Shown here: piece after piece, positions 39,283 through 63,999 of the stretch
Layout of the letters: each line of letters opens with the position of its first letter
Position numbering within the stretch: position 1 is the first letter of the stretch
Assembly: GCA_029561455.1 (NCBI GenBank)
Contig: JAKQIY010000068.1
Coordinates: forward strand, 434,001 to 498,000
Length of the DNA: 64,000 nt
Direction of reading: 5' to 3'
Source: a bacterium
GTDB lineage: Bacteria > Zhuqueibacterota > Zhuqueibacteria > Residuimicrobiales > Krinioviventaceae
Notes under the pieces: generated by a model
What the model was told of the DNA's origin: nothing
What the model saw: the letters and a program-made list of their open reading frames with translations, nothing else
Database searches by the model: none
Position numbers and translations under genes: made by a program

Positions 39283-39323
39283 ATTGACCTCCCAAAATCA
39301 AGTACCAATAATTTTTATGCACA

Positions 39324-41585: not shown

Positions 41586-41595
41586 AATGACCTCC

Positions 41596-43569: not shown

Positions 43570-44064
43570 AATACCTCCCAAATTTTTGAACCCGTCTGGC
43601 CCGCTAAATAGGGTAATATCCACAGCAGGTTTGGAAAAGATTATTCACAAAAACAGTATTACAAAATGCACTTTTAATAATGATCACTATTGCTGCGTAT
43701 GTGGAGTAATACTTGTTCATATACCCGCACAAAAAAAGTGAGATGCATTATTGCATCAAAAAAAATCGCCCGTGTCAGGAACAAATTCCTGGTTAAATAT
43801 ATTAAATTAGTAGTTGTTTGTCAATTCTTTTTTCAAAAATATCAAAAATTTACGGATTATTAATTGAAATCATAAATGACAAACCAGGCAATAACACAAC
43901 CGATCCGGGGTGAACAAGATGGTTGTTTTTTTTATAGCAATCTCGTATATTCGTCAATGCCGGCTCTTGCAGGCGCGGGCAAATTTGCGTTTACCAATTC
44001 TAACCAATTTCATATAATTAATAACCGGAAAAATATCCACAAACCAGAGATTGCGGACCGATAA
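43570..44064. other. 495-bp divergent promoter region
   Basis: It separates the minus-strand CBM9 operon from the plus-strand CotH/sulfatase genes and must hold both promoters. It is AT-rich. I see no convincing sigma-70 pair or inverted repeat, and the open frame at 43876-44064 is not credible as a gene. Confidence 0.5.
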
Positions 44065-47893: not shown

Positions 47894-48317
47894 CAACAGG
47901 GATGGCCCCCGGCCATCCCTATCGCACCAACAGCAAATTCTATTTAATTCAGGGCTGCACACAATAAATCTATGCTATAAAGCATGGGGACAATAATGAT
48001 GCATTACCAAAGCAAAAGTAAACCGCCCGGCTCTTACCGGTTTTCCGGAGTAACAAGTTCATATCTTTGGGTTTTATATAATGCAACATTGTAAAAGTTG
48101 CAATGTCAGAATGAATGTTAAAATATTGAGCCGCCGGACGGGCAGTTTGCATTCCCGGAAAAGGATTTAAATTTACAGCCTTTCCGGCGGCCTATTCCTT
48201 CAATAACCAAAGTTAATTAGTTATCATATAATCTATTTTACTTGAATTACAAAAATTAACATTTTTGAATATTGCGAAATTAAGGGCTGCCAAAGGGCAG
48301 CCCTTCACCAAAAGATA
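47894..48317. other. 424-bp intergenic with several hairpins, no gene
   Basis: After the sulfatase stop lies a 10-bp stem (agggatggcc 47898-47907, ggccatccct 47911-47920) without T tract. Further on gccgccgga (48130-48138) pairs with tccggcggc (48183-48191) across a 44-nt loop. A third, perfect 10-bp stem (48282-48291 with 48296-48305) is followed by TTAATTT on the minus strand and probably ends the decayed gene next door. Short open frames here do not look coding. Confidence 0.5.
48282..48305 (-). terminator. Terminator-like hairpin after the decayed gene
   Basis: aagggctgcc (48282-48291) pairs perfectly with ggcagccctt (48296-48305) around a 4-nt loop, followed on the minus strand by TTAATTTCG. 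It sits 13 nt past the remnant's TAG at 48318-48320. Confidence 0.6.
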
Positions 48318-48552
48318 CTACCGAAGCAGCATCATTTTTTAAGGTTTTTTCGATTCCATTTGCCGGGTAAAAGAACATCACCGGCGATACCGGCCTGTTT
48401 ACATTCCGGCAAGAGAATCTGAGCATTAATCTCTGCTTAACACCTCCTGTATGGCCGGCATTAAGCGGATTAGCAAGTAATTCAGGCCAGAGTCCTGAAT
48501 AATTGTTAATCTGAAAAAAACTGTAGCGCATAACCTTAATCTTATAATACAA
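48318..48552 (-). pseudogene. Decayed secreted-protein gene: sorting-domain remnant
   Basis: The minus strand reads FFYPANGIEKTLK in one frame. One extra A in the A run near 48335 shifts it; removing that base gives KMMLLR followed by TAG (48318-48320), the normal end of a sorting domain (compare KMMLIK, KMLLLK elsewhere here). Upstream there is no signal peptide and no complete domain, only degraded sequence back to about 48552. A copy of the chitin-locus operator motif lies just upstream (48568-48587) and a terminator-like hairpin just downstream. The likeliest origin is a small or internally deleted chitin-responsive secreted protein gene. Confidence 0.5.
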
Positions 48553-48567
48553 TGATAAATTTATTAG

Positions 48568-48587
48568 TTCATTGAATAAACATATTA
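48568..48587 (-). promoter_or_regulatory. Candidate ROK operator, copy at the decayed gene
   Basis: Bases 48568-48587 match 17 of 20 positions of the chitinase upstream site (54104-54123), including an identical ttcattgaat block. It lies just upstream of the decayed gene. Confidence 0.45.
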
Positions 48588-48690
48588 GTAAAACACGTCT
48601 CTTTTTTCAATTATTTACCTGTCTCCACACATAAAATTTCATTGTTTGAAAACTCTTGGTCGGTCTACAGTCTTACAATCATGCGGCTCC

Positions 48691-48734: not shown

Positions 48735-50786
48735 TCAATGTCCGGCGGTATACCTGACCAGTTTCTCTATGCCGGGTATCACCATGAGTTCCGTTTGTGC
48801 GCGGGGTGCGCCAGCTTGTTTCAAAATTGACAGTTGTTCATCCAACCATTTTTTATCCGGACGTTTGTGTTGTCCAATATTATCCAGGGCTGTCAAGCCA
48901 ATGGCAGCACAGTTGGCGAGATCTAAAGAAAGCGATTCAATTTCCGCCAATATCGGGCTGGTTTTAATCACGGGTAGCAATTTGTCATGATTATCTTTCC
49001 ATATTTGCAGGTGTTGCTTTAAAATTTCTGCGCTATGCTCCCCTCTGGCAGGTTCTGCCAGGTAATTATCGACCAGTTCACAAAATTCCCTGGCCACAGG
49101 CGCATCGGCAATAGCGGCATCGACAACCCGGGTTAACGGCGAATAGGACGTATAATCCCGCTGCGCGCCGCGGGTGTAAATCTTCACGGGTTCCAGTAAC
49201 TCAACCAGGGTTTGCAGGGGAACAATATCCTGGTTATTGGTCAAACGGCGCAGCATCATATCATGATTTTTAATATGGGTCAAGCCCAATTCTTCCAACC
49301 GGAAGCTGGTAATGTTTAAACGCCGAAACATATCGGCAAGATCGCGTACCGTTCCCGGCGACCAGAGCCGTTCGGCTATGGCAGCCGTGCGCGGCCAGAT
49401 ACGGGAATCAACGGTCTCCGGGGAAACATATTCAGCCCACATAGTCGCCTCGCCGCCGAGAATACATTGTTTTTCCTGATCGGTCAACGGCATATCGGCA
49501 GGCATCGGGTCATTCAGGTAATGGAAGGCGGTCGGTTGCATCAGATCAATATAATATCCATTGGATAAAATAGTCCGGTACCCCTGCCGGGCCGCATCGA
49601 TCAATGATTCCCGGCCCCGCCAGGATTGAATAACTATACTTTTTGGCATACCGGGATGCAATATTTCATCCCAGCCGACCATCTTTTTGTGATTTTTTTC
49701 CAGAATTGCCAGCAAGCGGCCATTGAAATAACTTTGCAAGGTATGATTATCTTTGATATTATTGGCTTGCATAAAAGCCTGAATGTCAGGATTGGTATCC
49801 CATTGTTTGCCGCTGTTTTCATCGCCGCCGATGTGCATATAATCATCCGGGAACAAGGTGCAGATTTCTGCAAAAAACCGGTCGAAGAAAGTATAGGTTG
49901 CCTCAATAGTGGGATTAAAAGTCGGGTCGAATACTCCCCATTTGCGTTCAATGGTGTACGGGCCCGGGGCGCTGGCCAGTTCCGGAAAAGCGACCAGCCA
50001 ACTGGTGGCATGACCGGGAATATCAAATTCCGGCATTACCCTGATACCGCGGTTGGCGGCATATTGAATTATATCCTTTATCTGGGCCTGGGTGTAATAC
50101 AGCCCGTCGGAACCTTGCAGATGCAATTGTGGAAAGGTATTACATTCAACGCGGAAACCCTGATCCTCACTAAGATGCCAGTGCATAACATTCAGCTTGA
50201 CTGCCGCCATGCCGTCAAGGTTACGTTTTACCATATCCACCGGCATAAAGTGGCGACAGGCATCGATCATCAAACCGCGCCAGGGAAACCGGGGCCGGTC
50301 GTTGATTTCCACAGTATGGAAAAAGTATCCTTTTTCATCAGCATCGAGCAATTGCAACAGGGTTTCGAGTCCCCGCATCGCGCCAATATCGGTAGCTGCA
50401 TTCAATGTTACGGCAGTTTCAGTTACCAGGAGTTGGTAAGATTCATCTTCGCCCAGTTCTACCTTGCCGGGTCGTTGTACATTGATTTCCATCCGGGGAT
50501 GTTCACATTTACTGCTTCTGGTAATAAAATCCTGCGGCAGAAACAACCCTGTGCGTCCGGCCAGGCGACGCAAGGTATTGGTAGTGTATTCATAGATACG
50601 GTTATCGGGATTGCCCTGCACCAGGGCGGTAAATTGCTCATCAAGACGAAAACTGGAATGGGTTTGCACAACTTGTTCCGGGATCGGCATCAGGTTCAAT
50701 TCCTGAGCCGCCTGTGTAAGGTTGGCGGTTACGAGTATGCAGCCGGTTAACATGAGTAATATCCATTGGGTTATTATATTCTTCAT
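48735..50786 (-). CDS. Secreted beta-N-acetylhexosaminidase (GH20)
   Basis: A 683-residue enzyme with signal peptide, a GH20b-type alpha/beta domain (~30-150, MPIPEQVVQTHSSFRL, YQLLVTETAVTLNA) and the GH20 TIM barrel (~155-500). Diagnostic segments are FPWRGLMIDACRHFMP, MHWHLSEDQGFRVE and the catalytic Asp-Glu in YMHIGGDENSGKQW. It releases terminal GlcNAc from chitin oligosaccharides using the acetamido group of the substrate. About 180 C-terminal residues form a helical tail. It is the third gene of the operon chitinase, symporter, hexosaminidase, 12 nt after the symporter. GGAAC precedes ATG 50786. Confidence 0.93.
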   Translation of the reverse strand: MKNIITQWILLMLTGCILVTANLTQAAQELNLMPIPEQVVQTHSSFRLDEQFTALVQGNPDNRIYEYTTNTLRRLAGRTGLFLPQDFITRSSKCEHPRMEINVQRPGKVELGEDESYQLLVTETAVTLNAATDIGAMRGLETLLQLLDADEKGYFFHTVEINDRPRFPWRGLMIDACRHFMPVDMVKRNLDGMAAVKLNVMHWHLSEDQGFRVECNTFPQLHLQGSDGLYYTQAQIKDIIQYAANRGIRVMPEFDIPGHATSWLVAFPELASAPGPYTIERKWGVFDPTFNPTIEATYTFFDRFFAEICTLFPDDYMHIGGDENSGKQWDTNPDIQAFMQANNIKDNHTLQSYFNGRLLAILEKNHKKMVGWDEILHPGMPKSIVIQSWRGRESLIDAARQGYRTILSNGYYIDLMQPTAFHYLNDPMPADMPLTDQEKQCILGGEATMWAEYVSPETVDSRIWPRTAAIAERLWSPGTVRDLADMFRRLNITSFRLEELGLTHIKNHDMMLRRLTNNQDIVPLQTLVELLEPVKIYTRGAQRDYTSYSPLTRVVDAAIADAPVAREFCELVDNYLAEPARGEHSAEILKQHLQIWKDNHDKLLPVIKTSPILAEIESLSLDLANCAAIGLTALDNIGQHKRPDKKWLDEQLSILKQAGAPRAQTELMVIPGIEKLVRYTAGH

Positions 50787-50798
50787 TGTTGTTCCTTT

Positions 50799-52700
50799 TT
50801 ACTTGTTCAAACTGGCAAAGCCGCGTTTTTTCAGATCATAATAAATAATGGCGGCGGCAATAGCGCCTACCAGGCAAAAGATAAAACCGCTAACAAATTG
50901 TAAAAGAACTAGTTTTCCAATACCAAACAGGAAAGAATAGACAAGAACTACACCACAAAACCAGTCCAGAAACAAGCGGCCAAAACCACTGTCGCTTTTC
51001 ACATCGGGTAAATTTTGAGTAATCCGTTTCCAACCGAGGCCGCCGGGGTGAACCCGGCGATAAAACTTTTCCAAAACGCTATCCGGCACTGGTTTGGTAA
51101 TAAATGTAACCACCAGCCATACCAGGGTAGTACCCAGCACAATGGGATACAGGGTAATGGGCGAAGCAAGGCCGAATACATTTTTCGCAATTGGATAGAT
51201 GATAAGCGGAGCGATCATCGCGGATATTTCCGACCAGGCATTAATTCGCCACCAGAACCAGCGCAAGATCAGCACGGCGCCCATTCCGGCGCTGGCGTTA
51301 ATAATGAACTCCCAGGCGCCGGATATAGTTGTTAAAAAATACCGGGTAATAAATAGTGAAAAAGCGATCATAACAATTATACCAAGACGTGATACCAGCA
51401 CATAATGATTTTCTTTGGCAGACGGCTTGATAAAACGCCGGTAAAAGTCATTGATTAAATACGATGTGCCCCAATTCAATTGCGAGGCAATGGTAGACAT
51501 GTACGCAGCCAGGAACACCGCGATCAACAAGCCCAGCAAACCGGCAGGTAAATAGCGAACCATTAATTTAGGGTACATAACGCCGGGATCAACTGTATTT
51601 TCATATTTTTCATAAAAATCCAGAAAAGCCTGATCTTGTTTATCCATTGTAGTAAGCGGCACTTTATTAACATACACCTGCACAACCCGGTCGTATAAAG
51701 CTGGATTTTCAGTTTGCAGGGCGCTTGGACTTTCCGCGCGGGGTAAAATGACCAGGGCAGCCAAGGCGACGAGAATCCAGGGCCAGGGACGCACCGCATA
51801 ATGTGCTATTGTAAACCATAATGTGGCAAACAGGCTATGCTTTTCATCTTTGGCCGACATCATACGTTGCGCAATATAACCACCGCCGCCGGGGTCGGCG
51901 CCAGGATACCAACTGGACCACCATTGTAAACCGATATGAGCGATAAATGCACCGGCCGATAGAGCCAGAACTCCGCCGGTTACTCCGCCAATCGTCATTT
52001 TACCAATGCGGGGGAAAAAGTCCAAAACCTGGGGCGCCAGGTGCTGCCGCAAAGCGACCAGACCGCCAACCTGGGGTAATTGCACGACCACAATTGCCAG
52101 AATAATGCATCCCAGCATGGCAAAGGCAAATTGAAAACTGTCGGTTCGGGCGGTGCCCAAAAGACCTGATGCTGAAGAATAAATCGCAACAATTACAGCC
52201 GTAATCACAACCAGCCAGAAAGAATCAAATCCGGGTATGGTAACATAAAAGATCTTTTGCATGGCTTTGTGAACCCAGCCCATAACAATGGCATTCATGA
52301 ACAAACCGAGATACAGGGCGCGAAAACCTCTGAGAACGGCGGCGGCTTTGCCGGAGTAGCGCAGTTCTACAAATTCCACATCGGTCATAATCCCGGCGCG
52401 GCGCCACAAGCGGGCAAAAAAGAATACTGTCAGCATACCACCGATAGCCAGGTTCCACCACAGCCAGTTACCGGCTATGCCGTTTCGGGCGACCAGTTCG
52501 GTTACCGCCAGGGGCGTATCGGCGGCAAAAGTAGTAGCCACCATTGCCGTACCGGCCAGGTACCAGGGCAGGTTACGGCCCGACAAAAAGAACTCGCCGG
52601 TGTCCTTTCCCGCCCGTTTTGAATAATAAGCAGCAATTCCGAAAATGATAATGAAAAAAGTTATAATGACCGAAATATCCAAAAGCTGTAATTGATGCAT
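50799..52700 (-). CDS. Sodium:solute symporter (SSS family), probably for GlcNAc or chitobiose
   Basis: A 633-residue inner-membrane transporter with about 14 hydrophobic helices. SSS features include GEFFLSGRNLPWYLAGTAMV near the N-terminus and MSTIASQLNWGTSYLINDFY in the helix 8-9 region. A soluble loop at ~320-370 (VYVNKVPLTTMDKQDQAF) is longer than in the sugar symporters I know. Placement between chitinase (8 nt) and hexosaminidase (12 nt) points to uptake of the products, GlcNAc or chitobiose, driven by sodium. No PTS or ABC importer occurs in the locus. GGGAG precedes ATG 52700. Confidence 0.88.
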   Translation of the reverse strand: MHQLQLLDISVIITFFIIIFGIAAYYSKRAGKDTGEFFLSGRNLPWYLAGTAMVATTFAADTPLAVTELVARNGIAGNWLWWNLAIGGMLTVFFFARLWRRAGIMTDVEFVELRYSGKAAAVLRGFRALYLGLFMNAIVMGWVHKAMQKIFYVTIPGFDSFWLVVITAVIVAIYSSASGLLGTARTDSFQFAFAMLGCIILAIVVVQLPQVGGLVALRQHLAPQVLDFFPRIGKMTIGGVTGGVLALSAGAFIAHIGLQWWSSWYPGADPGGGGYIAQRMMSAKDEKHSLFATLWFTIAHYAVRPWPWILVALAALVILPRAESPSALQTENPALYDRVVQVYVNKVPLTTMDKQDQAFLDFYEKYENTVDPGVMYPKLMVRYLPAGLLGLLIAVFLAAYMSTIASQLNWGTSYLINDFYRRFIKPSAKENHYVLVSRLGIIVMIAFSLFITRYFLTTISGAWEFIINASAGMGAVLILRWFWWRINAWSEISAMIAPLIIYPIAKNVFGLASPITLYPIVLGTTLVWLVVTFITKPVPDSVLEKFYRRVHPGGLGWKRITQNLPDVKSDSGFGRLFLDWFCGVVLVYSFLFGIGKLVLLQFVSGFIFCLVGAIAAAIIYYDLKKRGFASLNK

Positions 52701-52708
52701 AATACTCC

Positions 52709-54061
52709 CTACTTGATTAATATCATTTTGCCGGTTCTATCATATTCCGGAGTTGACAACTTGTATAAATAAATACCGGAGGGTAGATTATCCGCATAAA
52801 AGCGAACGTTGTGACGCTGCGGTGGTTGAATGGAATCGACCAGATTGCTCACCAGGCGACCGTTCGTATCAAATACATCGATACGAACAGGTAAGGTTTG
52901 AAAAATTTCGTAACAAATAACAGAGCTTGCATTGAATGGATTGGGATAGTTTTGTAACAACCCAAAAGTATCAACTTGTCGGGGTTTAGACTCTACACCA
53001 GTGGCAATTTGTCCGATAGCGTTTAACAGGGGTTGCTGGTCACTGATTACATCTCCCCCTAAGGCCCAGATCATAACACCGGCGATCTTTTTGTCGAGCG
53101 CGTATTTAAATTTAGCGGTAACCGAAGTGGAATCATCATAGGTGATAAACAATGTTCGGCTGGTATTGAGTAAATAAGGCGCCTGGGCGACGTTATCCCA
53201 ATAGCGCGTCCAGCCATTACCGATCAGGGGGAAAATATCGCAGAAATTCAGATCGGTACCGCCGGTAGCCGGGCCATATAACAGTGAAGCATTGAATTGA
53301 CGACCATAAAAGGGAATGCCAATAAGGATTTTTTCTTTGGGAACGCCTCGGGTACCGGTAAGATAATAGTAACCTTCGTTTACGGAGCCGCACTGATCTC
53401 CGCCGGAAGAATATAAAGGAGAATTATGCCCGGCATGATCTGTCCAACTGCCATGAAAATCATAGGTCATACATCCGAACCAGTCTATTGAACTGGTTAA
53501 AGAATCGTAATCGATCCATTGACCTGCCCAGGAACCGGCGGTGACTGCCATCGAGATGATCAAATTTTGTTCCGTAGTATTAAAAGCCGCGCGCATTTCC
53601 TTTACCAGGCTGACAAGATTTTTTTTATCGGCAGCATTGGCCGGATGTTCCCAATCGATATCGACGCCATCATAATTATTTCGCAGACAAAAGGTTATAA
53701 TATTGTTTATAAACGTCTCACGGCTTTGCGCAGATGCCGCCATTACCGGGAATCCATCGGAGCCGCCCCACCCTCCCAATGCAAAGGTGATTTTTTTTCC
53801 GGCGGCGTGTACTTTAGTATTAAGCTGCGGATAGATAAAATCGGCATCATAGTTAAGCAACCCATCACTGCCGGGAATAACAAACGAGTGAATAACATGA
53901 GTAAGATTATTCATCGCCAGGTTTTGAGCGGCCAACGTTGATTTTTGCCAAGAAGGGTAATAACCTGCCACAATGGTTTCAGTATATGTAGTCGCCGGCA
54001 ACAGGAATAATATAATAAAGAAAATAGGTAAAACAGCTAATATGGTTTTTTTTAAGGACAT
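52709..54061 (-). CDS. Secreted chitinase (GH18) with sorting domain
   Basis: A 450-residue enzyme with signal peptide (MSLKKTILAVLPIFFIIL) and a GH18 barrel (~30-345): VAGYYPSW at strand 1, ITFALGGWGGS at strand 3, and the catalytic motif YDGVDIDWEHP (D-x2-D-x-D-x-E, with Glu as acid). YDFHGSWTDHAGHNSPL and GVMIWALGGD complete the cleft. A sorting domain (LQNYPNPFNASSVI) ends KMILIK. It should cut chitin outside the cell into products used by GH20 and the symporter. ATG 54061 gives a proper signal peptide; a GTG at 54082 is less likely. A palindromic operator lies 30-64 nt upstream. Confidence 0.93.
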   Translation of the reverse strand: MSLKKTILAVLPIFFIILFLLPATTYTETIVAGYYPSWQKSTLAAQNLAMNNLTHVIHSFVIPGSDGLLNYDADFIYPQLNTKVHAAGKKITFALGGWGGSDGFPVMAASAQSRETFINNIITFCLRNNYDGVDIDWEHPANAADKKNLVSLVKEMRAAFNTTEQNLIISMAVTAGSWAGQWIDYDSLTSSIDWFGCMTYDFHGSWTDHAGHNSPLYSSGGDQCGSVNEGYYYLTGTRGVPKEKILIGIPFYGRQFNASLLYGPATGGTDLNFCDIFPLIGNGWTRYWDNVAQAPYLLNTSRTLFITYDDSTSVTAKFKYALDKKIAGVMIWALGGDVISDQQPLLNAIGQIATGVESKPRQVDTFGLLQNYPNPFNASSVICYEIFQTLPVRIDVFDTNGRLVSNLVDSIQPPQRHNVRFYADNLPSGIYLYKLSTPEYDRTGKMILIK

Positions 54062-54090
54062 AAGATTTGTTTCCACTTTCACAGGTCGTA

Positions 54091-54125
54091 TTCAATATAT
54101 TCATTCATTGAATTAATATATTGAA
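54091..54125 (-). promoter_or_regulatory. Palindromic operator of the chitin operon
   Basis: An 11-bp perfect inverted repeat (ttcaatatatt 54091-54101, aatatattgaa 54115-54125) flanks a 13-nt centre. Bases 54096-54112 are identical over 17 nt, on the opposite strand, to 59084-59100 upstream of the NagB-deacetylase gene. It lies between chitinase and the ROK regulator and is the best candidate operator for that regulator. Confidence 0.65.
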
Positions 54126-54182
54126 TATTACAAAAAAAACTCTTACATGTCAAGGACAATTTTATAATTTTCGAAAAAAAAA

Positions 54183-55340
54183 TTATATAAACAATTTTCG
54201 CAGGAACAACGAGGAAGCTCCTAACGATACGGAATAGATACCAATATCGGAAAAACGGATATCTGGCATAATAATACCAATCGGGAAAATACTTTTCAAA
54301 CTATTCTTAACATTTTTAGTAATATAATCATAGATTAGCTCTCTGGCTTCGGTTATATCACCGCCAATGACGATCAGGTCTGGATTTAAAAATTCAACAA
54401 TGCGGATAATTTCCGCAACGATAAATTTGCTGAAACACTTGAGCACATAATTGGAAATGTGGCAATTTTGTTTGCCATAAAGAATAACTTCCGAGAGAGA
54501 GACATTGCCGGTTTTATGCAAACAGGCGGCCAGCGGTTGGTCGTCGCCGTACTTTTTTATCCCCTTTTCAATTAATTTACGCAGCGCGGGTAATTTTACA
54601 AAAATTTCACCCGCCGTACCCTGGGCTCCTTCATAGAGGGTGCCGTTCAACAACATCCCGGCGCCCATTTCGCGGATTTTTTCATTCAAGGTTAAAAAAA
54701 CCACATTCGGTGGTAAAGGTTCCGGGGAATCGAGATGCCACCACACTCCGAGCGCGCCGGCGTTTGCGTCGTTAACTATTTCAACGGGCAGCGCCAGCGA
54801 ATCGGCCAGTTGTTTTTGTAAAGCTATATTATGTAAATTCAGGCGGCGGGAATAATGCACCAACCCATGGGTACGGTCAACCAGTCCGGGTAAGGCAACT
54901 CCCACGCCGATCAGTTTTTCTTTGGGTATGTTTAATTTTTCGATGGTTTCTTTTATTAGTATAGCGGCAGTTGCCGCTGTTTTGTCACCATACAAATCGA
55001 CAAAATCTACAATATGCTGTTGATGAATAACCTGGCAGGCAAAATTTATCACCGTAATACGGAATTCATAAGGTATTAATTCCACTCCCACAATAAAACC
55101 ACGATCCGGCTCAAGGCTCCATAAGGTTGGCGGTTTGCCGGCGGAACCAGGTAATGAGCCTACACGACTCACTTTAATAAAACCTGCCTTTTGCAACGAA
55201 CGTAAAATATAAACCAATGTGGATGGCTGGTACTTGGTGATGCGGGATAATTCAGCGCCGGAAATTTCCTTGTGACAACGGATTGTATTTAATACAATTT
55301 TATGACTGGGTATTTTTATCTGAAAAGACTTGGCAATCAT
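54183..55340 (-). CDS. ROK-family transcriptional regulator (NagC/XylR-like)
   Basis: A 385-residue regulator with N-terminal winged helix (~10-70, NTIRCHKEISGAELSRITKY, STLVYILRSLQKAGFIKV) and a ROK sugar-binding domain. The ROK half has GVGVALPGLVDRTHG and GTAGEIFVKLP, but the usual E-x-G-H motif reads E-I-F-V and the C-x-C-G-x2-G-C zinc motif is absent, so the sensor domain is degenerate. It may sense a different ligand, or none. Adjacent to the chitinase operon and ROK kinase, it is the obvious local regulator. caatgaat at 55369-55376, near its own start, may be a partial operator. The start codon ATG 55340 has only a weak ribosome site. Confidence 0.88.
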   Translation of the reverse strand: MIAKSFQIKIPSHKIVLNTIRCHKEISGAELSRITKYQPSTLVYILRSLQKAGFIKVSRVGSLPGSAGKPPTLWSLEPDRGFIVGVELIPYEFRITVINFACQVIHQQHIVDFVDLYGDKTAATAAILIKETIEKLNIPKEKLIGVGVALPGLVDRTHGLVHYSRRLNLHNIALQKQLADSLALPVEIVNDANAGALGVWWHLDSPEPLPPNVVFLTLNEKIREMGAGMLLNGTLYEGAQGTAGEIFVKLPALRKLIEKGIKKYGDDQPLAACLHKTGNVSLSEVILYGKQNCHISNYVLKCFSKFIVAEIIRIVEFLNPDLIVIGGDITEARELIYDYITKNVKNSLKSIFPIGIIMPDIRFSDIGIYSVSLGASSLFLRKLFI

Positions 55341-55424
55341 CAGGGTTCCCGCTTTATAGATCAGTTACCAATGAATTTTAAATAATATAATACAACAAAA
55401 AATTTATCAAGTCAATAACCGCTA

Positions 55425-56396
55425 TTAAAATTTTTCACTAATCTGCATGGCCAGACATGCCGAACCAACCAATCCGGCATTTTCGCCAAGATGCGCCGGC
55501 ACCAGGGTAATAGTTTCAAAATTAGTTTTAAAAGCAATTTGAGCCAGCGTTTCGCGCGCCGGTTTAAAGATCAATTCTCCGGCATTGGATATCCCCCCGC
55601 CGATTACGACCCGCTCCAGATTTAACAGGTTGGCAACATTGCCCAGTCCCACACCCAAACTCTCACCCACTTCCTGAAACAGTAAAAGCGCGGTTTTATC
55701 GCCTTTAACTGCGGCATTGTAAATATCTTCCGGGGTTATATTATGCGGTTCGATTTCCCGTAGTATAGAACGGGGATAGTCAACGAGTAATTCTTTGATT
55801 CGGCGTTGAATGCCATATTTTCCGACAAATGCTTCTACACAACCACGACGACCGCAGGCGCACAAGGGTCCATCCTTCTGGATTATCGTATGGCCGAACT
55901 CGCCGGCAGCGCTGCGAGATCCATGATAGATTGCGCCGTTCAGGATCAATCCACTGCCCACACCCGAACCCAGGGTGACCATCAGCATTTCAGTTACTCC
56001 CCGGCCGGCGCCAAACTTATATTCACCTAACGCGGCCAGGTTCGCATCATTGTCAACTGATACTTTAAAATCCAGGCGCTTTTCAAGTTCATAGCCAATT
56101 TTTACATTTTTCCAGCCGGGAAAATTAGAGGCTTCGACCAACATTTGATTTTTGATATCTATCAAACCGGGAACGCCAATACCAAATCCTTTGACAACAA
56201 AATCACTGCCGGCTGCATGTATCAATTCCCGGGTATAGCCGGCAATTTTATCAAATACATATTTATAACCAAATGGAATTTCTGAATCTAACTTTTTTTG
56301 TAAATGGATTGTTCCATTTGCTAATACCAGGCCAAATTTGATATTCGTACCACCCAAATCCATACCAATCCAGGCAGCCTGTTTTTGAACATTCAC
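55425..56396 (-). CDS. ROK-family sugar kinase, probably N-acetylglucosamine kinase
   Basis: A 323-residue kinase. ATP site GMDLGGTNIKFGLV, catalytic Asp in SVDNDANLAALGE, E-x-G-H motif in AAGEFGHTI, and the zinc motif CACGRRGCVEAF are all intact, unlike in the neighbouring ROK regulator. Such kinases phosphorylate glucose, GlcNAc or ManNAc at O6. In this locus GlcNAc to GlcNAc-6-phosphate is the expected step, feeding the NagB-deacetylase fusion. GGAG precedes ATG 56396. An imperfect palindrome lies upstream (56440-56461). Confidence 0.88.
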   Translation of the reverse strand: MNVQKQAAWIGMDLGGTNIKFGLVLANGTIHLQKKLDSEIPFGYKYVFDKIAGYTRELIHAAGSDFVVKGFGIGVPGLIDIKNQMLVEASNFPGWKNVKIGYELEKRLDFKVSVDNDANLAALGEYKFGAGRGVTEMLMVTLGSGVGSGLILNGAIYHGSRSAAGEFGHTIIQKDGPLCACGRRGCVEAFVGKYGIQRRIKELLVDYPRSILREIEPHNITPEDIYNAAVKGDKTALLLFQEVGESLGVGLGNVANLLNLERVVIGGGISNAGELIFKPARETLAQIAFKTNFETITLVPAHLGENAGLVGSACLAMQISEKF

Positions 56397-56439
56397 TTGA
56401 ACTCCGCTATATAAAATTTATTACACAACATCAAGATAT

Positions 56440-56461
56440 TTCAAAAATAATATTTTTGGAA
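56440..56461 (-). promoter_or_regulatory. Imperfect palindrome upstream of ROK kinase
   Basis: ttcaaaaata (56440-56449) pairs with tatttttggaa (56451-56461) with one extra G. It is A/T-rich like the chitin operator but has no extended identity to it. Possible operator. Confidence 0.35.
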
Positions 56462-56557
56462 ATATAAATTACAAAGTAGTTAATTTTGCAATAATTTTTT
56501 CTTTAAACAAGAAAATAATCAAGTCGGGACAATATTTTTAAATACCGATATTTTTTA

Positions 56558-58939
56558 TTATAAATCCGGCTCATCACTATTACTGGATTCAATTTTATTG
56601 CGTAACTCGATGGTATGTTCATAAAATTCAGCAAGATCCATTTTCACCAGAAAACACAAACCATGACTGGCCCGCAAGCGCGGGTGAGAATTCCCGGTAA
56701 AAAATTCTTCACCCAGACAGGTTTTCATTATCTGAAATTGTTCTGCCTGAATTCTTTGCGCCAAACGTGAAAACGGACCATCATATTCGTAACTTGGGAA
56801 TGAAGCATCCCGCTGGGAACCAAAGGAATTCCGGAAAGTACTTTTCAAGACTTCCATAGAATTTAAAGAAACCGGTACAAAGACATTTACTTCAGCAGGA
56901 TGAAAACGATACCAGACATTTCGATAGCCCCATACTTCTATATTGGAAATATTGGTTTCATTTTCATAAATCTTGAGAGCCTCGGCAACAGCCTGCATTA
57001 CCTTGTAATGGGTATCGGGGCCGCTGCCCTCCGGGTCAAAAGCCACCGACACCACATCCGGCTTGATCTTGTGGATCAACTGGGTGAGCGGCCGCACATC
57101 GCGATCGATTTCCGGTTCTTCGGTAAAGATCTCTCCCTTGTAAAATCCGAGCCGCAAATGGTTAACCGACCGGGAATCAAAACCGAAATGCGCCCATAAT
57201 ACATCCGCTTCCCATTCTCTGATCATCCCTTTAAGCTGCTGAATATAGGCAAGATCTTTTTTACCGGGGTATTGGGTGGAAAAATAATCGATCAATTCAT
57301 TGATGCGATCTTTTAAATGCGTCAGGCTGTCTTCTTCAAACAGGAACACCAGGTCGCGTAAAATTCTGCGGGCGTTGGCTTCATCTTTGAGCGATTCGCT
57401 ATAGTTGGCAATACCATCCAGGTATCGGGATACATCGCGGTTACGGTAATTTTCATTAGCCGGGTTGAAATAGCCCTCAGTCATGAGACGGGCAAAATTC
57501 GGGGTATCGATAAATTTCAACAGATTACGAAGCATATTTAAAACATAATGATTGGTTACGGCATTAAAACCGCTGGTCATATAATTGAAAAAATGCTTGT
57601 TTAATGGGGTACGCACCAAATGATAGATATAGGGTAAATATCCCAGCATGATATCATCATGATGCGGGGCAGTGTGCATAAATGTTTTATTCTCAATAGT
57701 CTCCAGGCCACGCTGTAATTTGTTGATCAAAGAGGCTTCAACCTGGGACAAGACTGTTTTATAATTGTCGCCGCACATTTTTAAAACCGCACGGCTAAAC
57801 CGGTTAGCTTGCAGCTCTTTAAAGCTGAGATCCCGAATTCGTTTACCCTTTTCAAGCGACAGATCAATAATTACTTTCTCGATCTGCACCTGGGATAGGG
57901 TTACCGATTTGCATAAATCTTCATATTGACGTTCCACCAGCCGTGAAGCGGCGCCATGCGTCAGGTAGAAACGGGCATTAGGTTGGCGCTGTAAACAGGT
58001 GGCCGGATACAGGTTATTCTCTTCGTTTTCTACAGACTGGGCAATGATCCTGGCTTTTGCTTCACCCGCAGCGATTATAATTGATACAGCGTTTTTATTA
58101 AAAGTAATAGTCGACAAACCGACGGTTATCACCAACCGGTTTTTGGAAACTTCAATACCGCCAAGGTCGGTTGCGGCAGCAGCCTGGGTTTCATAATTCG
58201 TCGCCGTTAACCGGGTCGTTGAATAATGATCAGAACCGCGTATATTAAAAGCAATGTGGCCGTCCGGTCCAATGCCACCCAGGAAAAAGCCGATCCCGCC
58301 AATTTCTCTGATCTTACGCTCATAATCGGAACAATATTGATCGACAGCTTCAATAACGTTCTTTTGTATTTGCTCCACGCTATTCTGGGCATGCCGGGTC
58401 CGCAGACCGAGGTCGACAATATCATTCGGAAAGACATCTTTGAGGGACATTCCGACCGGCACGCCTACATCCTGGCAATTGATCAGCATGGCCTTTTGCG
58501 GATTAAGACCGAATCCCTGGATGTAAAACTTTTTAACATAATAATGAAAACTGTTATGTTGTTGGGGATTGATTGGATAGAATTCATCTATTTGTATAAA
58601 ATGCAGACCAGACATCACTGGTTTCTTTTCCGGGTTAATGCCATTTTCCTGCAGATCTTGTTGTACTTGCGGCAAATGCCACTTGTCCAGGTACCAGGTT
58701 ACCCATTTAATAAAATGTTCCGGGGTTTTACCGGTTGGTAAAGAGATAACGCCATTCGGATTCTCCTGTACCCATTCCAGGAAACGTAACGCCGTTAATT
58801 TGCCCAGAGCAGGGAAATTTTCCACCTCGACGATCTTAATTTTTTCAGTGGGTGTGTACCAAAACTTTCTACCTGACCGTTCCAGGAAGACTTGTTCAAC
58901 CATGGATTGGATTTTATTGATAGTGTTTTTTTTGATCAT
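56558..58939 (-). CDS. Glucosamine-6-phosphate deaminase (NagB) fused to PIG-L/LmbE-type deacetylase
   Basis: A 793-residue two-domain protein. Residues ~35-330 form a NagB-like deaminase: SLPTGKTPEHFIKW, IQIDEFYPI (catalytic Asp/Glu), GIGPDGHIAFN and the lid LSTITFNKNAVSIIIAAGEAK. Residues ~400-790 form a PIG-L zinc deacetylase: TAPHHDDIMLGY (His-Asp-Asp), FGFDSRSVNHLRLGFYKGE and DVVSVAFDPEGSGPDTHYKV. NagB turns glucosamine-6-phosphate into fructose-6-phosphate and ammonia; the PIG-L half probably deacetylates GlcNAc-6-phosphate in place of NagA, which is absent. ATG 58939 is chosen over GTG 58951; neither has a strong ribosome site. The shared operator motif lies ~145 nt upstream. Confidence 0.87.
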   Translation of the reverse strand: MIKKNTINKIQSMVEQVFLERSGRKFWYTPTEKIKIVEVENFPALGKLTALRFLEWVQENPNGVISLPTGKTPEHFIKWVTWYLDKWHLPQVQQDLQENGINPEKKPVMSGLHFIQIDEFYPINPQQHNSFHYYVKKFYIQGFGLNPQKAMLINCQDVGVPVGMSLKDVFPNDIVDLGLRTRHAQNSVEQIQKNVIEAVDQYCSDYERKIREIGGIGFFLGGIGPDGHIAFNIRGSDHYSTTRLTATNYETQAAAATDLGGIEVSKNRLVITVGLSTITFNKNAVSIIIAAGEAKARIIAQSVENEENNLYPATCLQRQPNARFYLTHGAASRLVERQYEDLCKSVTLSQVQIEKVIIDLSLEKGKRIRDLSFKELQANRFSRAVLKMCGDNYKTVLSQVEASLINKLQRGLETIENKTFMHTAPHHDDIMLGYLPYIYHLVRTPLNKHFFNYMTSGFNAVTNHYVLNMLRNLLKFIDTPNFARLMTEGYFNPANENYRNRDVSRYLDGIANYSESLKDEANARRILRDLVFLFEEDSLTHLKDRINELIDYFSTQYPGKKDLAYIQQLKGMIREWEADVLWAHFGFDSRSVNHLRLGFYKGEIFTEEPEIDRDVRPLTQLIHKIKPDVVSVAFDPEGSGPDTHYKVMQAVAEALKIYENETNISNIEVWGYRNVWYRFHPAEVNVFVPVSLNSMEVLKSTFRNSFGSQRDASFPSYEYDGPFSRLAQRIQAEQFQIMKTCLGEEFFTGNSHPRLRASHGLCFLVKMDLAEFYEHTIELRNKIESSNSDEPDL

Positions 58940-59316
58940 GGCTTTATTCACTTTAATTCATTACGGTTTTGACACGGATTAAAGAAAATTGTAATACTAG
59001 TAGATATTTTCCCTTTGTATTATTACAACACACCATAAATTTCAAATATACAGGGGAAAAGTGATTTTACAAAAATAAATTTGTTCAATGAATGAATATA
59101 ATATTTATTTTTTCAATTGTCAATAAAAAAGAATAGTTTTGAAACAGAAAAGTACAAGTAAGGATAGGATTATAGAGGGAAACTATAAATAGTTGTTATG
59201 ATATTGATGTATCTGATTATAAAATCAAACTAATTTGCAAAAAAGATTTAGAGAGCTAAATTAATAATATAATCATCAATTACAAGAATAATCACTATAT
59301 TAGTAAAACAGGTGAG
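58940..59316. other. 377-bp intergenic with operator, no gene
   Basis: It contains the promoter and operator of the NagB-deacetylase gene and the 3' flank of the kinase gene at 59317. It is AT-rich and otherwise without recognisable content. Confidence 0.5.
59084..59100 (-). promoter_or_regulatory. Shared chitin-regulon operator motif
   Basis: ttcaatgaatgaatata is the exact reverse complement of 54096-54112, at the centre of the chitinase palindrome. A 17-nt identity in non-coding DNA of one locus is unlikely by chance, although both regions are AT-rich. Confidence 0.6.
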
Positions 59317-60339
59317 TTAGTTAAATTTATTTACCGGGGAAATAATGAAAGAAAATGAAACACCAGCAGTAGACTCAAAATTTACTTGACCCCCTAACTG
59401 ATTGGCAATCAATGAATACACCAGCATAAATCCCATAGAACTGGCTCGCGATGGGTCGATATCAGCTAGACCTACCCCATTATCTTTAACAACAATATGG
59501 ATTTTATCTTTATGTTGTTGTAAAGAAACAAGTAAACGAGCATCCCCGTGCCAATTTTCGGGATAGGCGTGTAAAAAGGTATTGGAAATAATCTCGTTCA
59601 AAGCCAGACCAATTGGAATTGCCTGGTCGATTGGCATTTGTACAGTATCCAATAAAAGTTCAGGCTGTATTTTTGATGAAGCGGGAGCATACGATAAATA
59701 TAAATAATTAACCAGCTTTTGAATAAAAACATTCAAGTCAATCACCGCAGTATTGATCGATTGGTTCATTATTTCATAAGACATACCAATAACTTTGATT
59801 CGGTTCTCATGAGTTCGCAGCAGGGTCAGATTATCTTTATTTTGCTGTAAACTGATTTGTAAACTTGTCAAGCTGGAGATGATTTGTAATGTATTACGGA
59901 TACGATGCTGAACATCAAGAAGATGTGTTTTGTAAAGATTTTCCAGCCTGGTAAATTCAATTTCCCGTTGCTTGCGGGTTTCGACCAGTGCTTCAATTTT
60001 GTCCAGAGTTTTCATCATATCACGAATATTAACCGGTTTTCGGAAAAAAGCAAAAACCCCGAAATTGACAGCATCAATGATATTATTAATTTCTGCATAA
60101 CCGGTAAACAAAATTACCGGGGTGCCGGGTTTTTGTTTTTGAATGGCGCATAAAAATTCGACACCATTCATTTTCGGCATTTTGTAGTCGGTAATTACTG
60201 TATCGAATTCATAATTTATAAAATTTTGCAAGGCAAGTTCGGGCTGATCAAAACAAGTACAGTCATGACCTGAGGGCTCTATGGCTTCTTTTAAACTTTG
60301 TAAAACAGTAGATTGATCGTCAACAATCATTATTTTCAT
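59317..60339 (-). CDS. REC-histidine kinase hybrid (REC + HisKA_2-like + HATPase)
   Basis: A 340-residue cytoplasmic protein. The receiver domain comes first (~1-115): MIVDDQ, phospho-Asp in VITDYKMP, Thr in ILFTGYAE, Lys in FRKPVN. After a short coiled linker the kinase part has its H-box at LLDVQHRIRNTLQI and an HATPase with ALNEIISNTFLHA and VKDNGVGL. The order receiver-then-kinase, without sensor or membrane segment, suggests a phosphorelay middleman controlled by another kinase. The PAS kinase and NtrC-type regulator next door are natural partners. Confidence 0.87.
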   Translation of the reverse strand: MKIMIVDDQSTVLQSLKEAIEPSGHDCTCFDQPELALQNFINYEFDTVITDYKMPKMNGVEFLCAIQKQKPGTPVILFTGYAEINNIIDAVNFGVFAFFRKPVNIRDMMKTLDKIEALVETRKQREIEFTRLENLYKTHLLDVQHRIRNTLQIISSLTSLQISLQQNKDNLTLLRTHENRIKVIGMSYEIMNQSINTAVIDLNVFIQKLVNYLYLSYAPASSKIQPELLLDTVQMPIDQAIPIGLALNEIISNTFLHAYPENWHGDARLLVSLQQHKDKIHIVVKDNGVGLADIDPSRASSMGFMLVYSLIANQLGGQVNFESTAGVSFSFIISPVNKFN

Positions 60340-60788
60340 TATCGGGACCAGATATTAAAGCTATAGGTTGTTTCAGGTCTAATCATTGCAGGGCAGACAA
60401 GAAAAAACAGCAACAAGAATAATTTAAACCCGGCGCAAAAGAACCATACCTCACCCACAAAAAAAACCATTCAGAATCTCCGCAATTTGCACCGGGTATA
60501 AACATTAATTATAGTATTGGTTATGTGAATAAAGAACAGTTTTAGTGACCTGATAAAGATAGTAACAAAACATGCAAAAAAAGTGCTTATCAGGTAATAA
60601 TGCCGGCAATTACCAGGCATTACAGGTGGGTTAAGGCATATATTATGCCATAGAGGGGTGTATAAAAGAAATGATGTTACTGGTTGATTTTATTGAATTT
60701 TTAGCAGTAATAACAAAAAATCAACCTGCGTGTAATATTACAAATCAGTGTCTAGAAATGATTTTTGTATACTATTTTGTATAATTGT
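60340..60788. other. 449-bp intergenic, no gene
   Basis: AT-rich gap between the REC-kinase and NtrC-type genes. It holds the REC-kinase promoter and the 3' flank of the NtrC-type gene. No clear hairpin or coding frame was seen. Confidence 0.45.
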
Positions 60789-62237
60789 CTAATTCTCCAG
60801 TCTTTTCAGGTATGTATGCAATACCCGCAAAGAAATCCCCAAATAACTTGCGGTTTTGGTTTTATTTTGATTAAATCTTTCCATCGCCATACGAATAATA
60901 TTCAGTGTATACTGGTTAATATCCAACCGCTCTTCCGGCAGGTTAAATTGTTCAAAAGAATTATTGTCAAGCAACGGTTCTGCTTTGACAATTGAGCCTT
61001 TTAACAGGTTATCCAGGTGTTTTATATCTATCACCGAATCTTCCCACAAGAGAGCAATCCGTTCAATTGTACTTTTTAATTCGCGGACATTTCCGGGCCA
61101 GTTATAGTTAATTAATCTTTTTTCAGCATCATGGCTAATACTTTTAAATGAAGTTTTATTGACAATTAACAATTGATCCAGGAACATCTGTGCCAGGGGA
61201 ATAATCTCTTCTTTTCTTTCGCGCAAAGGCGGTATGCGAACATAACCTACATTTAAACGGAAAAACAAGTCTTCACGAAAAGTTCCTTCTTTTACCTGCT
61301 CCTGTACATTGCGGTTGGTAGAACAAATTATCCGGGCATTGCAGTTTAGTTTTTTTAATCCCCCAACCTTGTAATATTCTTTTTCCTGGATCACACGTAA
61401 AAGTTTAGCCTGGTGTTCGACCGGCATTTCGGTAATTTCATCCAACAGAATCGTACCCTCACCGGTTAGTTCCAGTTTGCCTTTTTGTCCCTTGGGATTG
61501 CCACCCGTAAAAGCGCCGGATTCATACCCAAACAATTCACTTTCAAACAAGCCTGAATTGATCGCCGCGCAGTTGAGAGCAATAAAAGGGGTAATAATAT
61601 CTCCGTTGCCGTAATGGATGAACTTTGCCACCATTTCCTTGCCGGTGCCGGTCTCTCCTTCCAGCAAAACCGGGATATCAGGATTACGATGCAATTTTTC
61701 TGCAGTAGCAAATACTTTTTTTAAAGAGTCGGAAAAAATTCCAATATCGGCCGTACCAATTACCTGAATTAAAGCTTTGCGCACCTCGGTCAGTTCTTTT
61801 TCAATTTCACTTGTAGCTTGTTTGACCTGTTCTTTAAATTCACGAGTCAGTTTTTTATTTTCCTGTTTCAGATCGAGGTATTCGGAAACACGGTCGATGA
61901 TCTGTTTTAATTCATTTATATCAATTGGTTTTAGAAGATAATCATAGGCTCCGTCTTTCATCGCCGTAACAGCGCGTTTAAGATCGCCATGCCCGGTAAA
62001 TAATATTACCTGGACTTCTTCAATATTTTTATCACCCTTGATGGCTTTAAGCAAGTCATAGCCATCCATATAGGGCATTTGAATATCGGATAAAACCAAA
62101 TGAACCGGATTTTTTTTTAAATACAGTAACGCGTCGCGGCCATTGCCGGATTCCACTACCTGGTGACCGAGATAACTTAAAAATGCTTTGATACTTTCCC
62201 GTATTTGCTGATTATCTTCAACCAGTAAAATGATCAT
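60789..62237 (-). CDS. Sigma-54-dependent response regulator (NtrC family)
   Basis: A 482-residue activator. The receiver domain (~1-120) has VEDNQ, phospho-Asp in VLSDIQMPYMDG, ILFTGHGD and LLKPID. A coiled-coil linker (~122-155) is followed by the AAA+ domain (~165-400): Walker A GETGTGKE, sigma-54 contact loop GAFTGGNP, Walker B TILLDEITEMP, and Arg finger in REDLFFRLNV. A Fis-type helix-turn-helix ends the protein (NKTKTASYLGISLRVLHTYL). It activates sigma-54 promoters when phosphorylated, most likely by the kinase encoded 13 nt upstream. GGGAG precedes ATG 62237. Confidence 0.93.
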   Translation of the reverse strand: MIILLVEDNQQIRESIKAFLSYLGHQVVESGNGRDALLYLKKNPVHLVLSDIQMPYMDGYDLLKAIKGDKNIEEVQVILFTGHGDLKRAVTAMKDGAYDYLLKPIDINELKQIIDRVSEYLDLKQENKKLTREFKEQVKQATSEIEKELTEVRKALIQVIGTADIGIFSDSLKKVFATAEKLHRNPDIPVLLEGETGTGKEMVAKFIHYGNGDIITPFIALNCAAINSGLFESELFGYESGAFTGGNPKGQKGKLELTGEGTILLDEITEMPVEHQAKLLRVIQEKEYYKVGGLKKLNCNARIICSTNRNVQEQVKEGTFREDLFFRLNVGYVRIPPLRERKEEIIPLAQMFLDQLLIVNKTSFKSISHDAEKRLINYNWPGNVRELKSTIERIALLWEDSVIDIKHLDNLLKGSIVKAEPLLDNNSFEQFNLPEERLDINQYTLNIIRMAMERFNQNKTKTASYLGISLRVLHTYLKRLEN

Positions 62238-62250
62238 TGTGTACTCCCTC

Positions 62251-63999
62251 TTATTTTGAACCCAAAGTTATTCTGAATAAAGCGCCACCGGTTTTTACAT
62301 TTTCCGCAGTAATTGCTGCGCCAATGCTGCTGAGAATATTTTGCACAATTGCCAACCCCAAACCCATCCCGTCCTTGCCAATTTTTGTTGTATAAAAAGG
62401 ATCAAAAATACGGGTAATATTATCTTCGGAAATTCCCGGCCCATTATCTTCCACTTCAATAATACAAGAATCATTTTGCAAACGGGTACTCAGGATAATT
62501 GTTTTATCCTCTTTTTCCAGAGAATCCAAAGCATACATGGCATTAATGGTAAGATTGATGAGTACCTGTTCCATTGGAGTTTCATGGGCAAGAATAAACG
62601 GCGCCGGCTCGTGCAGTTTTAATACTACTTTGATGCGGTGTGATTGCAGTTGCTGACCGATAAGGGTCAGGATATTATCAATAATAGAGTTAATATTAAT
62701 TTGCGCCGGCGGCGGCGCCTGGTCAATTTGTGCCAGGGAGCGCATATGTTTAATTATATTGTCGATTTTATCAGCTTCCCGGGAAATAAATTGTAAATTT
62801 TGTTCGAGGTTCTTTTTCATCAATTCCGGATTTTCTTCTCCCCAATATAAAAGGCTATCGACTTTGATTTTCAAGGCAGTAAGCGGTTGGTTAATCTCAT
62901 GTGAAATGCCGGCAGCCAGCGTCCCCAGCGAGGCCAGGCGTGATGCACGGTCAGCCAGTTGCAGGGCATCTTCCTTCATTTTTCGTTCCGATATATCATG
63001 GAGAACCGCAAGCAATAAAGTATTTGTTTCAGAATCATAAAAAATTGGAGTGCTGGTGATCTCATAATATTTATTACCAATTTTTTCCTCTTTCCTGGCA
63101 AAGGATGTTTTGTAATGTAAGATATTTTTAAAATCTTTTATTACTAATTTTGCATATCCTGAGGGCATTATTTTATCAAGGTCTAGCCCTTCAACTTTAT
63201 CTTTACGGCCAATTTCATTTAAAAACGCATGATTGACAGCAATGGTAATAAATTTTTTATTATCAAATTTTGCCAATAATATCATATCCTTAACACTGTT
63301 AAAAATCATGGCCAGCCGTCTTTCACTATGCTGTAAATCTTCTTCAGCTTTTTTTCTTTTAGTAATATCGATATTGATTCCTAAAATACCCAACATACGA
63401 TCGCCATCTTTGATAGGTGCAATAATATTCTGATAGGTACAGGGATTACCGGCAGGGTCGTGAAATTCAACTTCTTCGTCGATTACTTGTCCAGCATAAG
63501 CCCGGGCATTATTACATTGCCAAAATTCTTTAATATCGGATGGTACATCCACTTCTTCAGGTATTTTACCGGTTAAATCATTCCAGATATTTATTGAATA
63601 TTTGTTTTGTAAAAAACATTTTCCATTATTATCCCTGGCCCAAAGCTCAAAAGGGAAATTATCAATAACCGACCGGAGCAGCACATCTTGTTCACGTAGT
63701 GTAACTTCGATTTTTTTATTTTCACTTATATCTGAATGGGTGCCCACCATACGTAAAACTTTACCGGACTGGTTTTTTTGTACGGTTTTTGCCCGTGAGC
63801 GAATCCAGATCCATTGATTATCCCTGGTTCGTAGCCGGAATTCATTAGATATATAATCTAGCGGCTTATCTTTCAACTGCTGCAAATCAGTCTTTACCCT
63901 GCTAAGATCATCCGGATGCATTAATGAATACAAGGTATCGAGGTTATGAGGATAAGAGTCAGGAGGGTAACCAAGCATTGTAAACCAGCGTGGACTAAA
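62251..63999 (-). CDS. PAS-domain sensor histidine kinase (NtrB-like), 5' truncated by the window
   Basis: The frame stays open to the window end (FSPRWFTMLGYPPDSY), so the N-terminus is missing; at least 583 residues are visible. Three PAS-type domains with PAC motifs (RLRTRDNQWIWIRSRAKTV; FELWARDNNGKC; KDMILLAKFDNKKFI) precede the kinase core. The H-box is LGTLAAGISHEINQPLTALK, the N-box NLTINAMYALDSL, and the G-boxes VEDNGPGI and GKDGMGLGLAIV. No transmembrane segment is seen in the visible part, so it may be a cytoplasmic sensor. It sits 13 nt from the NtrC-type regulator and is its probable partner. Confidence 0.92.
   Translation of the reverse strand, partial: FSPRWFTMLGYPPDSYPHNLDTLYSLMHPDDLSRVKTDLQQLKDKPLDYISNEFRLRTRDNQWIWIRSRAKTVQKNQSGKVLRMVGTHSDISENKKIEVTLREQDVLLRSVIDNFPFELWARDNNGKCFLQNKYSINIWNDLTGKIPEEVDVPSDIKEFWQCNNARAYAGQVIDEEVEFHDPAGNPCTYQNIIAPIKDGDRMLGILGINIDITKRKKAEEDLQHSERRLAMIFNSVKDMILLAKFDNKKFITIAVNHAFLNEIGRKDKVEGLDLDKIMPSGYAKLVIKDFKNILHYKTSFARKEEKIGNKYYEITSTPIFYDSETNTLLLAVLHDISERKMKEDALQLADRASRLASLGTLAAGISHEINQPLTALKIKVDSLLYWGEENPELMKKNLEQNLQFISREADKIDNIIKHMRSLAQIDQAPPPAQININSIIDNILTLIGQQLQSHRIKVVLKLHEPAPFILAHETPMEQVLINLTINAMYALDSLEKEDKTIILSTRLQNDSCIIEVEDNGPGISEDNITRIFDPFYTTKIGKDGMGLGLAIVQNILSSIGAAITAENVKTGGALFRITLGSK

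Follow-up and report, generated by a model that had tools for sequence, protein, structure and literature searches.

A shared palindromic operator and its predicted autoregulated ROK repressor at chitin/N-acetylglucosamine genes of a candidate-division-KSB1-type bacterium

The stretch of DNA analysed here, which we call the window, comprises 64,000 nucleotides of a bacterial genome (assembly GCA_029561455.1, contig JAKQIY010000068.1, positions 434,001 to 498,000). It carries an identical 17-nt sequence upstream of a chitinase gene and upstream of a gene that fuses a NagB-like deaminase to a PIG-L-like deacetylase (NagB/PIG-L). Judged from the DNA, this shared sequence is quite probably the operator of a neighbouring ROK-family protein (54183-55340), which would act as a sugar-responsive repressor. 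The best reading is that of an autoregulated ROK repressor of a chitin/N-acetylglucosamine (GlcNAc) regulon in a candidate-division-KSB1-type bacterium. A small regulon of this kind, with an operator suited to a ROK protein, had been proposed in an earlier, sequence-only reading. It is now supported because the sites occupy promoter positions, are conserved at the same genes, co-occur with the ROK gene, and recur as a palindrome before distant ROK genes.

The repeat is exact, as had been claimed: positions 54096-54112 (plus strand) read TATATTCATTCATTGAA, and the precise reverse complement is found at 59084-59100. As a binding motif, however, the 17-mer has other bounds, the core being TTCA-N5-TGAA within a 21-bp palindrome. 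The chitinase operator (54096-54116, minus strand) reads TTAATTCAATGAATGAATATA, with the core TTCAATGAATGAA at 54100-54112 and one mismatch to TTNNTTCANTSANTGAANNAA. The NagB/PIG-L operator (59080-59100, minus strand) reads TATATTCATTCATTGAACAAA, with its core at 59084-59096 and one mismatch to the consensus TTnnTTCAnTSAnTGAAnnAA. It should be noted that the consensus was built from 27 aligned sites and is not independent of the two window sites, which are among them; two loci enter it twice, in different registers, and seven sites from bins labelled Bacteroidetes were picked with TGAAYA. Around the chitinase operator an imperfect palindrome extends over 39 bp (54089-54127), with 36 of the 39 positions symmetric. 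The sequence-only reading had remarked on this palindrome too, but its long form is missing from the sister genome G001: there the orthologous chitinase is preceded by the same operator site, and only the inner part of the palindrome is conserved, not the outer arms. By this comparison, the predicted operator core is 13-21 bp and not the 39-bp palindrome.

The length of the shared word is by itself no evidence. Seventeen is the longest word common to the two intergenic regions, and 300 dinucleotide-preserving shuffles of them gave at most 14. Over a whole shuffled window, about 1.8 repeated 17-mers are expected (mean of 30 shuffles, range 0-7), and for this reason the comparative evidence is decisive. 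In the real window, 280 17-mers are repeated; of the 60 listed, many lie in paralogous genes at 33.6-41.7 kb. Chance, that is, AT-rich intergenic DNA giving rise to both the shared 17-mer and the palindrome, can draw on this expectation and on the behaviour of the core TTCATTGAA alone, which has 102 occurrences genome-wide and 54 when reversed. It is nonetheless an extremely unlikely explanation, given the conservation at the same genes in relatives, the overlap with promoters, and the low counts of the reversed controls described below.

Both window operators lie at promoter-like sequences of the form TTGACA-17-TA(A/T)(A/T)(A/T)T. TTGACA-17-TAATAT (54125-54153, minus strand) stands directly upstream of the chitinase operator, and G001 has TTGACA-17-TATTAT at this position. 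In TTGACA-17-TATATT (59095-59123, minus strand), the -10 hexamer overlaps the NagB/PIG-L operator core. At 15 of 23 distinct candidate sites from the host genome and its relatives, a -10-like hexamer either overlaps the site or stops no more than 11 nt short of it, and an exact TTGACA stands 16-17 bp in front of this hexamer. The eight sites without this layout include the third window site discussed below (TTGAAA) and that of the NagB/PIG-L gene in G004 (TTGCAA). Since the operator coincides with the -10 box or follows it closely, binding of a dimer would mask the -10/start region and block the polymerase, an argument also made for promoter-overlapping sites of Bifidobacterium NagR (PMC9599254). 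The same source indicates that ROK regulators can work either way, which would allow the protein to be an activator or dual regulator at these sites. Their position over or after the -10 box, rather than upstream of the -35 box, makes such a role quite improbable.

Conservation was followed in 82 genomes of the phylum, 11 of which have an orthologue of the ROK regulator. Orthologues were defined by at least 42% identity, a cut that follows a gap in the identity list down to 34% and was fixed after the list was seen. Of 76 NagB/PIG-L rows, 10 without a usable N-terminus were dropped, leaving 66 upstream regions, 13 from the 11 orthologue genomes and 53 from the rest; among those counted as negatives are the regions of G013 and G021, with next to no DNA upstream, and three others that are short. 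A first model, the single-centre palindrome TTCATTCANTGAATGAA, was found at up to three mismatches in 7 of the 13 regions vs. 4 of the 53 (Fisher p 5e-4), where 100 permuted palindromes of the same composition gave means of 0.17 (maximum 4) and 0.26 (maximum 3), respectively. That model fits the window and G006 and needs three to four mismatches in G005, G008 and G075. It was given up for TTCA-N5-TGAA, which is exact in all five. The latter precedes NagB/PIG-L in 8 of the 13 orthologue-genome regions and in 4 of the 53 others (Fisher p 8e-5); the genomes that have it there include G001, G003, G004, G005, G006, G008, G040, and G075. In the DNA scanned, the final 300 nt of each upstream region and a further 30 nt, N5 was the best of 16 spacers, and TTCA/TGAA ranked first of 256 half-sites at N5. 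G002 and G007, which belong to the same family and have no ROK orthologue, show no TTCA-N5-TGAA upstream of NagB/PIG-L.

Joining promoter and operator into one pattern, TTGACA-N{14,40}-TTCA-N5-TGAAYNAA, gave 26 matches in the 82 genomes and none when reversed. It is present in 9 of the 11 genomes with a ROK orthologue vs. 8 of the 71 without (p 3.7e-6). The genes downstream of the matches in orthologue genomes include NagB/PIG-L, chitinase, proteins with CBM9 and a sorting tail, and the ROK gene itself; several matches inside reading frames are probably due to chance. The host genome has two matches, the NagB/PIG-L site and one at C43:90167, the chitinase site being missed because its right flank differs. 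The site at C43:90167, on a contig other than that of the window, is upstream of a gene whose 1179-aa product has a sorting tail and four stretches of CBM9, and this surface-protein gene is a likely further target of the ROK protein. Further matches in regulator-bearing genomes (L250, G004:C31:34688; L241, G005:C186:1628; L235, G075:C92:18119; L234, G071:C30:1076) are followed by first reading frames that, where found, are not recognisable by eye as chitin genes.

Within the host genome (5.85 Mb in 85 contigs), the only sites with at most one mismatch to the consensus are the two window operators; at up to two mismatches there are 41 sites vs. 9 in the reversed control. A variant pattern, TTGACA-N{17,42}-TTCANTGAAYNAA, matches 20 times in the 82 genomes and twice when reversed, and in the host it finds the two window sites only. 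The 13-mer TTCATTCATTGAA has three copies genome-wide, the two window sites and C43:59735, and none when reversed. Random genome DNA equally rich in the motif, which the sequence-only reading had named as the observation that would count against it, is not what these controls show. We did not use as evidence a background figure of 32/311, nor the internal T and A of the consensus (present in 26 and 25 of the 27 sites, with 51 of 132 background sites having both); the background set includes loci fetched with the patterns themselves. Several other sites were set aside as targets: C43:59735, which adjoins zinc-ribbon genes and where no TTGACA-type promoter was found; C67:12603, which lacks TTGACA; and C4:138460, C26:224481, C29:70802, C67:242105 and C69:110399, which have two mismatches to the first model and lie inside called reading frames.

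A connection to the ROK protein is seen where the palindrome precedes ROK genes. Homologue loci were gathered from a separate genome collection with the aligned sequences of the regulator and its orthologues. Of 26 such loci, L268 was dropped for want of upstream DNA; 16 remote ROK controls were chosen by hand from remote hits. In the 220 nt ahead of the ROK gene, TTCA-N5-TGAA is present at 11 of the 25 homologue loci vs. 1 of the 16 controls. No other of the 3072 half-site/spacer combinations reaches this number; the runner-up is an A-tract found in seven loci. Eight of the 11 positive loci come from new records. One is the UASB270 bin; the remaining seven bins have either Bacteroidetes or one of its subgroups as their label and appear to be close relatives of each other. 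Their site is TTTGTTCA-N5-TGAACAAA, or close to this, and is 25-27 nt ahead of the matched gene start. In all, an operator ahead of the ROK gene is clear in G040, G071, and eight loci from other records. At the one Bacteroidetes locus examined, the neighbours are a TonB receptor, an M1 peptidase, and a second ROK protein, and no chitin genes; what is shared is then the regulator and its site. A more speculative view, which we would place short of probable, is that a ROK subfamily has kept one operator (approximately the consensus above) with its own gene across KSB1-type, UASB270, and Bacteroidetes bins while its regulon was rewired, serving chitin/GlcNAc genes in the KSB1-type and other neighbours in Bacteroidetes. 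On this view the subfamily, which has lost the zinc site usual in ROK proteins, would respond to an unphosphorylated amino-sugar oligomer and not to GlcNAc-6-phosphate.

Several observations weigh against control by the neighbouring ROK protein. Fourteen of the 25 ROK-homologue loci, including G001, G075, G005, G008, and Ignavibacteria/Melioribacteraceae, have no palindrome directly upstream. In the window, the region directly upstream of the regulator has a half-site only, and a full operator stands ahead of the gene only by way of the NagB/PIG-L unit. With gaps of 161 and 84 nt within this stretch, transcription of NagB/PIG-L, kinase, and regulator as one unit is a presumption. G065, G070, and G071, which have the orthologue, and the second copy in G001 show no TTCA-N5-TGAA upstream of NagB/PIG-L. 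Conversely, G003 has the operator and no ROK match at E 0.001 (its assembly is in 980 contigs and 91% complete). Finally, the N5 core and the 42% cut were chosen after part of the data had been seen, and related genomes are not independent.

The case of G003 also fits a real operator that belongs to another regulator, such as a ROK paralogue elsewhere in the genome or the NtrC-type and two-component proteins encoded at 59317-63978. The latter cluster, directly upstream of the NagB/PIG-L gene, consists of a response regulator-histidine kinase, an NtrC-type activator, and a further kinase-like gene. L259 is the furthest removed of the bins with a TTGACA-associated site; there, too, histidine-kinase-like and NtrC-like genes immediately follow the ROK gene, and in L274 a histidine-kinase-like gene adjoins it. 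The ROK query matches the host genome at four more places. One of them, C29:188971, is a near-full-length paralogue with the related site TTTGTTCAATAACTAAACAAA on a TTGACA-17-TATAAT promoter alongside. In L269, L270, and L275, however, the palindrome is directly upstream of the ROK gene and the stretch fetched has no match to the two-component proteins of the window; the promoters at the sites are sigma-70-like, no scan for sigma-54 promoters having been made. Another regulator is, on balance, an unlikely owner of the sites, and we favour the neighbouring ROK protein.

The paralogue locus (L352:4625-8144; G000:C29:186624-190143) deserves a description of its own. The gene for the 423-aa paralogue and one for a homologue of the CBM9/sorting-tail protein of G001/G004 are divergently oriented; the latter is followed by a larger gene that looks by eye like a TonB receptor. 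The TTGACA-17-TATAAT between the two divergent genes overlaps TTTGTTCAATAACTAAACAAA, and here a second ROK protein seems to be paired with an operator of its own, of related motif.

The proposed repressor (54183-55340, minus strand) is 385 aa long and belongs to the DNA-binding branch of the ROK family, as far as its ROK domain (PF00480, E 2.1e-26, above cut-off) and a modelled helix-turn-helix tell. In the structure model (mean pLDDT, the predicted local distance difference test, of 86), an N-terminal winged helix-turn-helix is formed by helices 11-23, 28-35, and 39-51 and the strands that follow; a MarR match is below cut-off. Foldseek aligns the model with helix-turn-helix ROK repressors, the best match in the PDB being the operator-bound ROK repressor Lmo0178 of Listeria (5f7q; also 5f7p and 5f7r), with 22% identity in the fold alignment. 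Lmo0178 serves a different sugar system. Among the orthologues, the putative recognition helix (STLVYILR in the window protein) hardly varies, and remoter homologues have a similar one. A cysteine/histidine zinc motif, CxCGxxGCxE, is common in ROK proteins and not obligatory. It is absent in all 11 orthologue rows of the alignment, a lack that we do not take to exclude the protein from the family; the adjacent kinase has CACGRRGCVE. NagC and Mlc of E. coli, regulators of GlcNAc or glucose use, share the architecture, but the window protein is an orthologue of neither: it scores 76.9 bits with the NCBIfam NagC model NF047937 (cut-off 650) and 57.3 with that for Mlc (cut-off 530).

Several published ROK systems invite comparison. 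ChiR of Thermotogales regulates chitobiose/GlcNAc catabolic genes, and chitobiose abolishes its binding, whereas GlcNAc does not; it controls an operon for an ATP-binding cassette (ABC) transporter with nagAB, in contrast to the symporter, sorted GH18 chitinase, and NagB/PIG-L fusion here (PMC3750489). Bifidobacterium NagR represses GlcNAc and milk-oligosaccharide use and responds to GlcNAc and its phosphates. Of its 11 palindromic operators, 10 overlap the -10 or -35 box, and its gene adjoins nagK and nagB, much as the window ROK gene has its neighbours; it differs in phylum, in its separate nagA and nagB, and in its ABC transporters (PMC9599254). CsnR of Streptomyces lividans is a ROK repressor that acts through a palindromic promoter box on the gene for a secreted hydrolase of an amino-sugar polymer, as proposed here, but the target is a chitosanase in an actinobacterial host, and the likeness is one of description, not of operator letters (PMC3048496). 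The RokB site of Streptomyces coelicolor, TTTGTTC-N11-GAACAAA, has the half-site of the Bacteroidetes-labelled loci, which are spaced TTTGTTC-N7-GAACAAA; RokB acts on other genes (PMC4856308). NanR (BT0433) of Bacteroides thetaiotaomicron is alike in family and in its predicted sialic acid/GlcNAc regulon (PMC3878776). In the literature searched, the titles and starts of abstracts mention neither this operator nor a KSB1 chitin regulon.

The gene order, as transcribed on the minus strand, is NagB/PIG-L fusion, ROK kinase, ROK regulator, GH18 chitinase, symporter, and GH20. The enzyme names of the fusion (56558-58951) are weakly founded on Pfam and NCBIfam matches that are all below cut-off (PF01182 and PF02585; NF002557, E 2.5e-64). 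Its PIG-L domain was considered as the sole GlcNAc-6-phosphate deacetylase, an idea dropped on a nagA match just above cut-off at G000:C74. The ROK sugar kinase (55425-56396; PF00480 over residues 10-318, with NCBIfam kinase models below their cut-offs) is probably a GlcNAc kinase by gene context. The chitinase (52709-54082; PF00704, PF18962) carries a secretion-system sorting tail and starts with GTG, an in-frame ATG further downstream being also possible. The sodium:solute symporter (50799-52700; PF00474) is likely part of its transcription unit, which ends with a GH20 beta-N-acetylhexosaminidase (48735-50786; PF00728). The order chitinase-symporter-GH20 is the same in G001 and G004, and in G004 the operator-bearing chitinase unit is headed by a CBM9/sorting-tail gene. 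At the regulator locus, the nearest named relative, 71% identical and of the same genus, is a bin labelled candidate division KSB1.

With these genes the ROK repressor could work as follows. In the absence of chitin, the dimer would block both the chitinase-symporter-GH20 unit and the NagB/PIG-L-ROK kinase-ROK regulator unit. Since the regulator gene would lie within the latter, the repressor would also limit its own synthesis. Chitin products (chitobiose, GlcNAc, or GlcNAc-6-phosphate) would enter via the symporter and, once bound by the ROK domain, cause the protein to dissociate from the DNA.

Two further sites had been suggested in the window. The first, before a supposed decayed gene, does agree with the chitinase site at 17 of 20 positions (48568-48587) and adjoins a plausible promoter, TTGAAA-17-TAATAT (48582-48610, minus strand), but as an operator it is a weak candidate (48560-48584, minus strand), which aligns with the consensus in two overlapping registers and has two mismatches in either. 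The stretch beyond it (48280-48552) may be a gene remnant; three-frame reading, tblastn of four CBM9/sorting-tail proteins, and blastn against G001, G004, and C43 stretches gave nothing significant. An exact TTCA-N5-TGAA also occurs in the intergenic DNA just upstream of this promoter (48638-48650). The second, caatgaat near the ROK start, is present at 55369-55376, 28 nt ahead of the start codon (55340), and is at best the half-site ATTCATTG, accompanied by a weak promoter-like TTGACT-17-TATTAT (55387-55415; together 55369-55415, minus strand). Elsewhere in the window, four neighbouring minus-strand genes (33611-43623) encode similar long secreted proteins with shared repeats and sorting-tail-like ends, CBM9-type by eye only; near them no consensus operator was found at up to two mismatches.

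In closing, it is credible from the sequence comparisons that the regulon is new and its kind known, an ordinary control of sugar use in a little-known group. An uncultured lineage with chitin-degrading genes gains a concrete predicted regulon, with exact operator coordinates and a predicted repressor. The motif can be used for finding chitin-use genes in related metagenome bins, and the candidate ROK regulator and its operator form a pair that can be traced across phyla.

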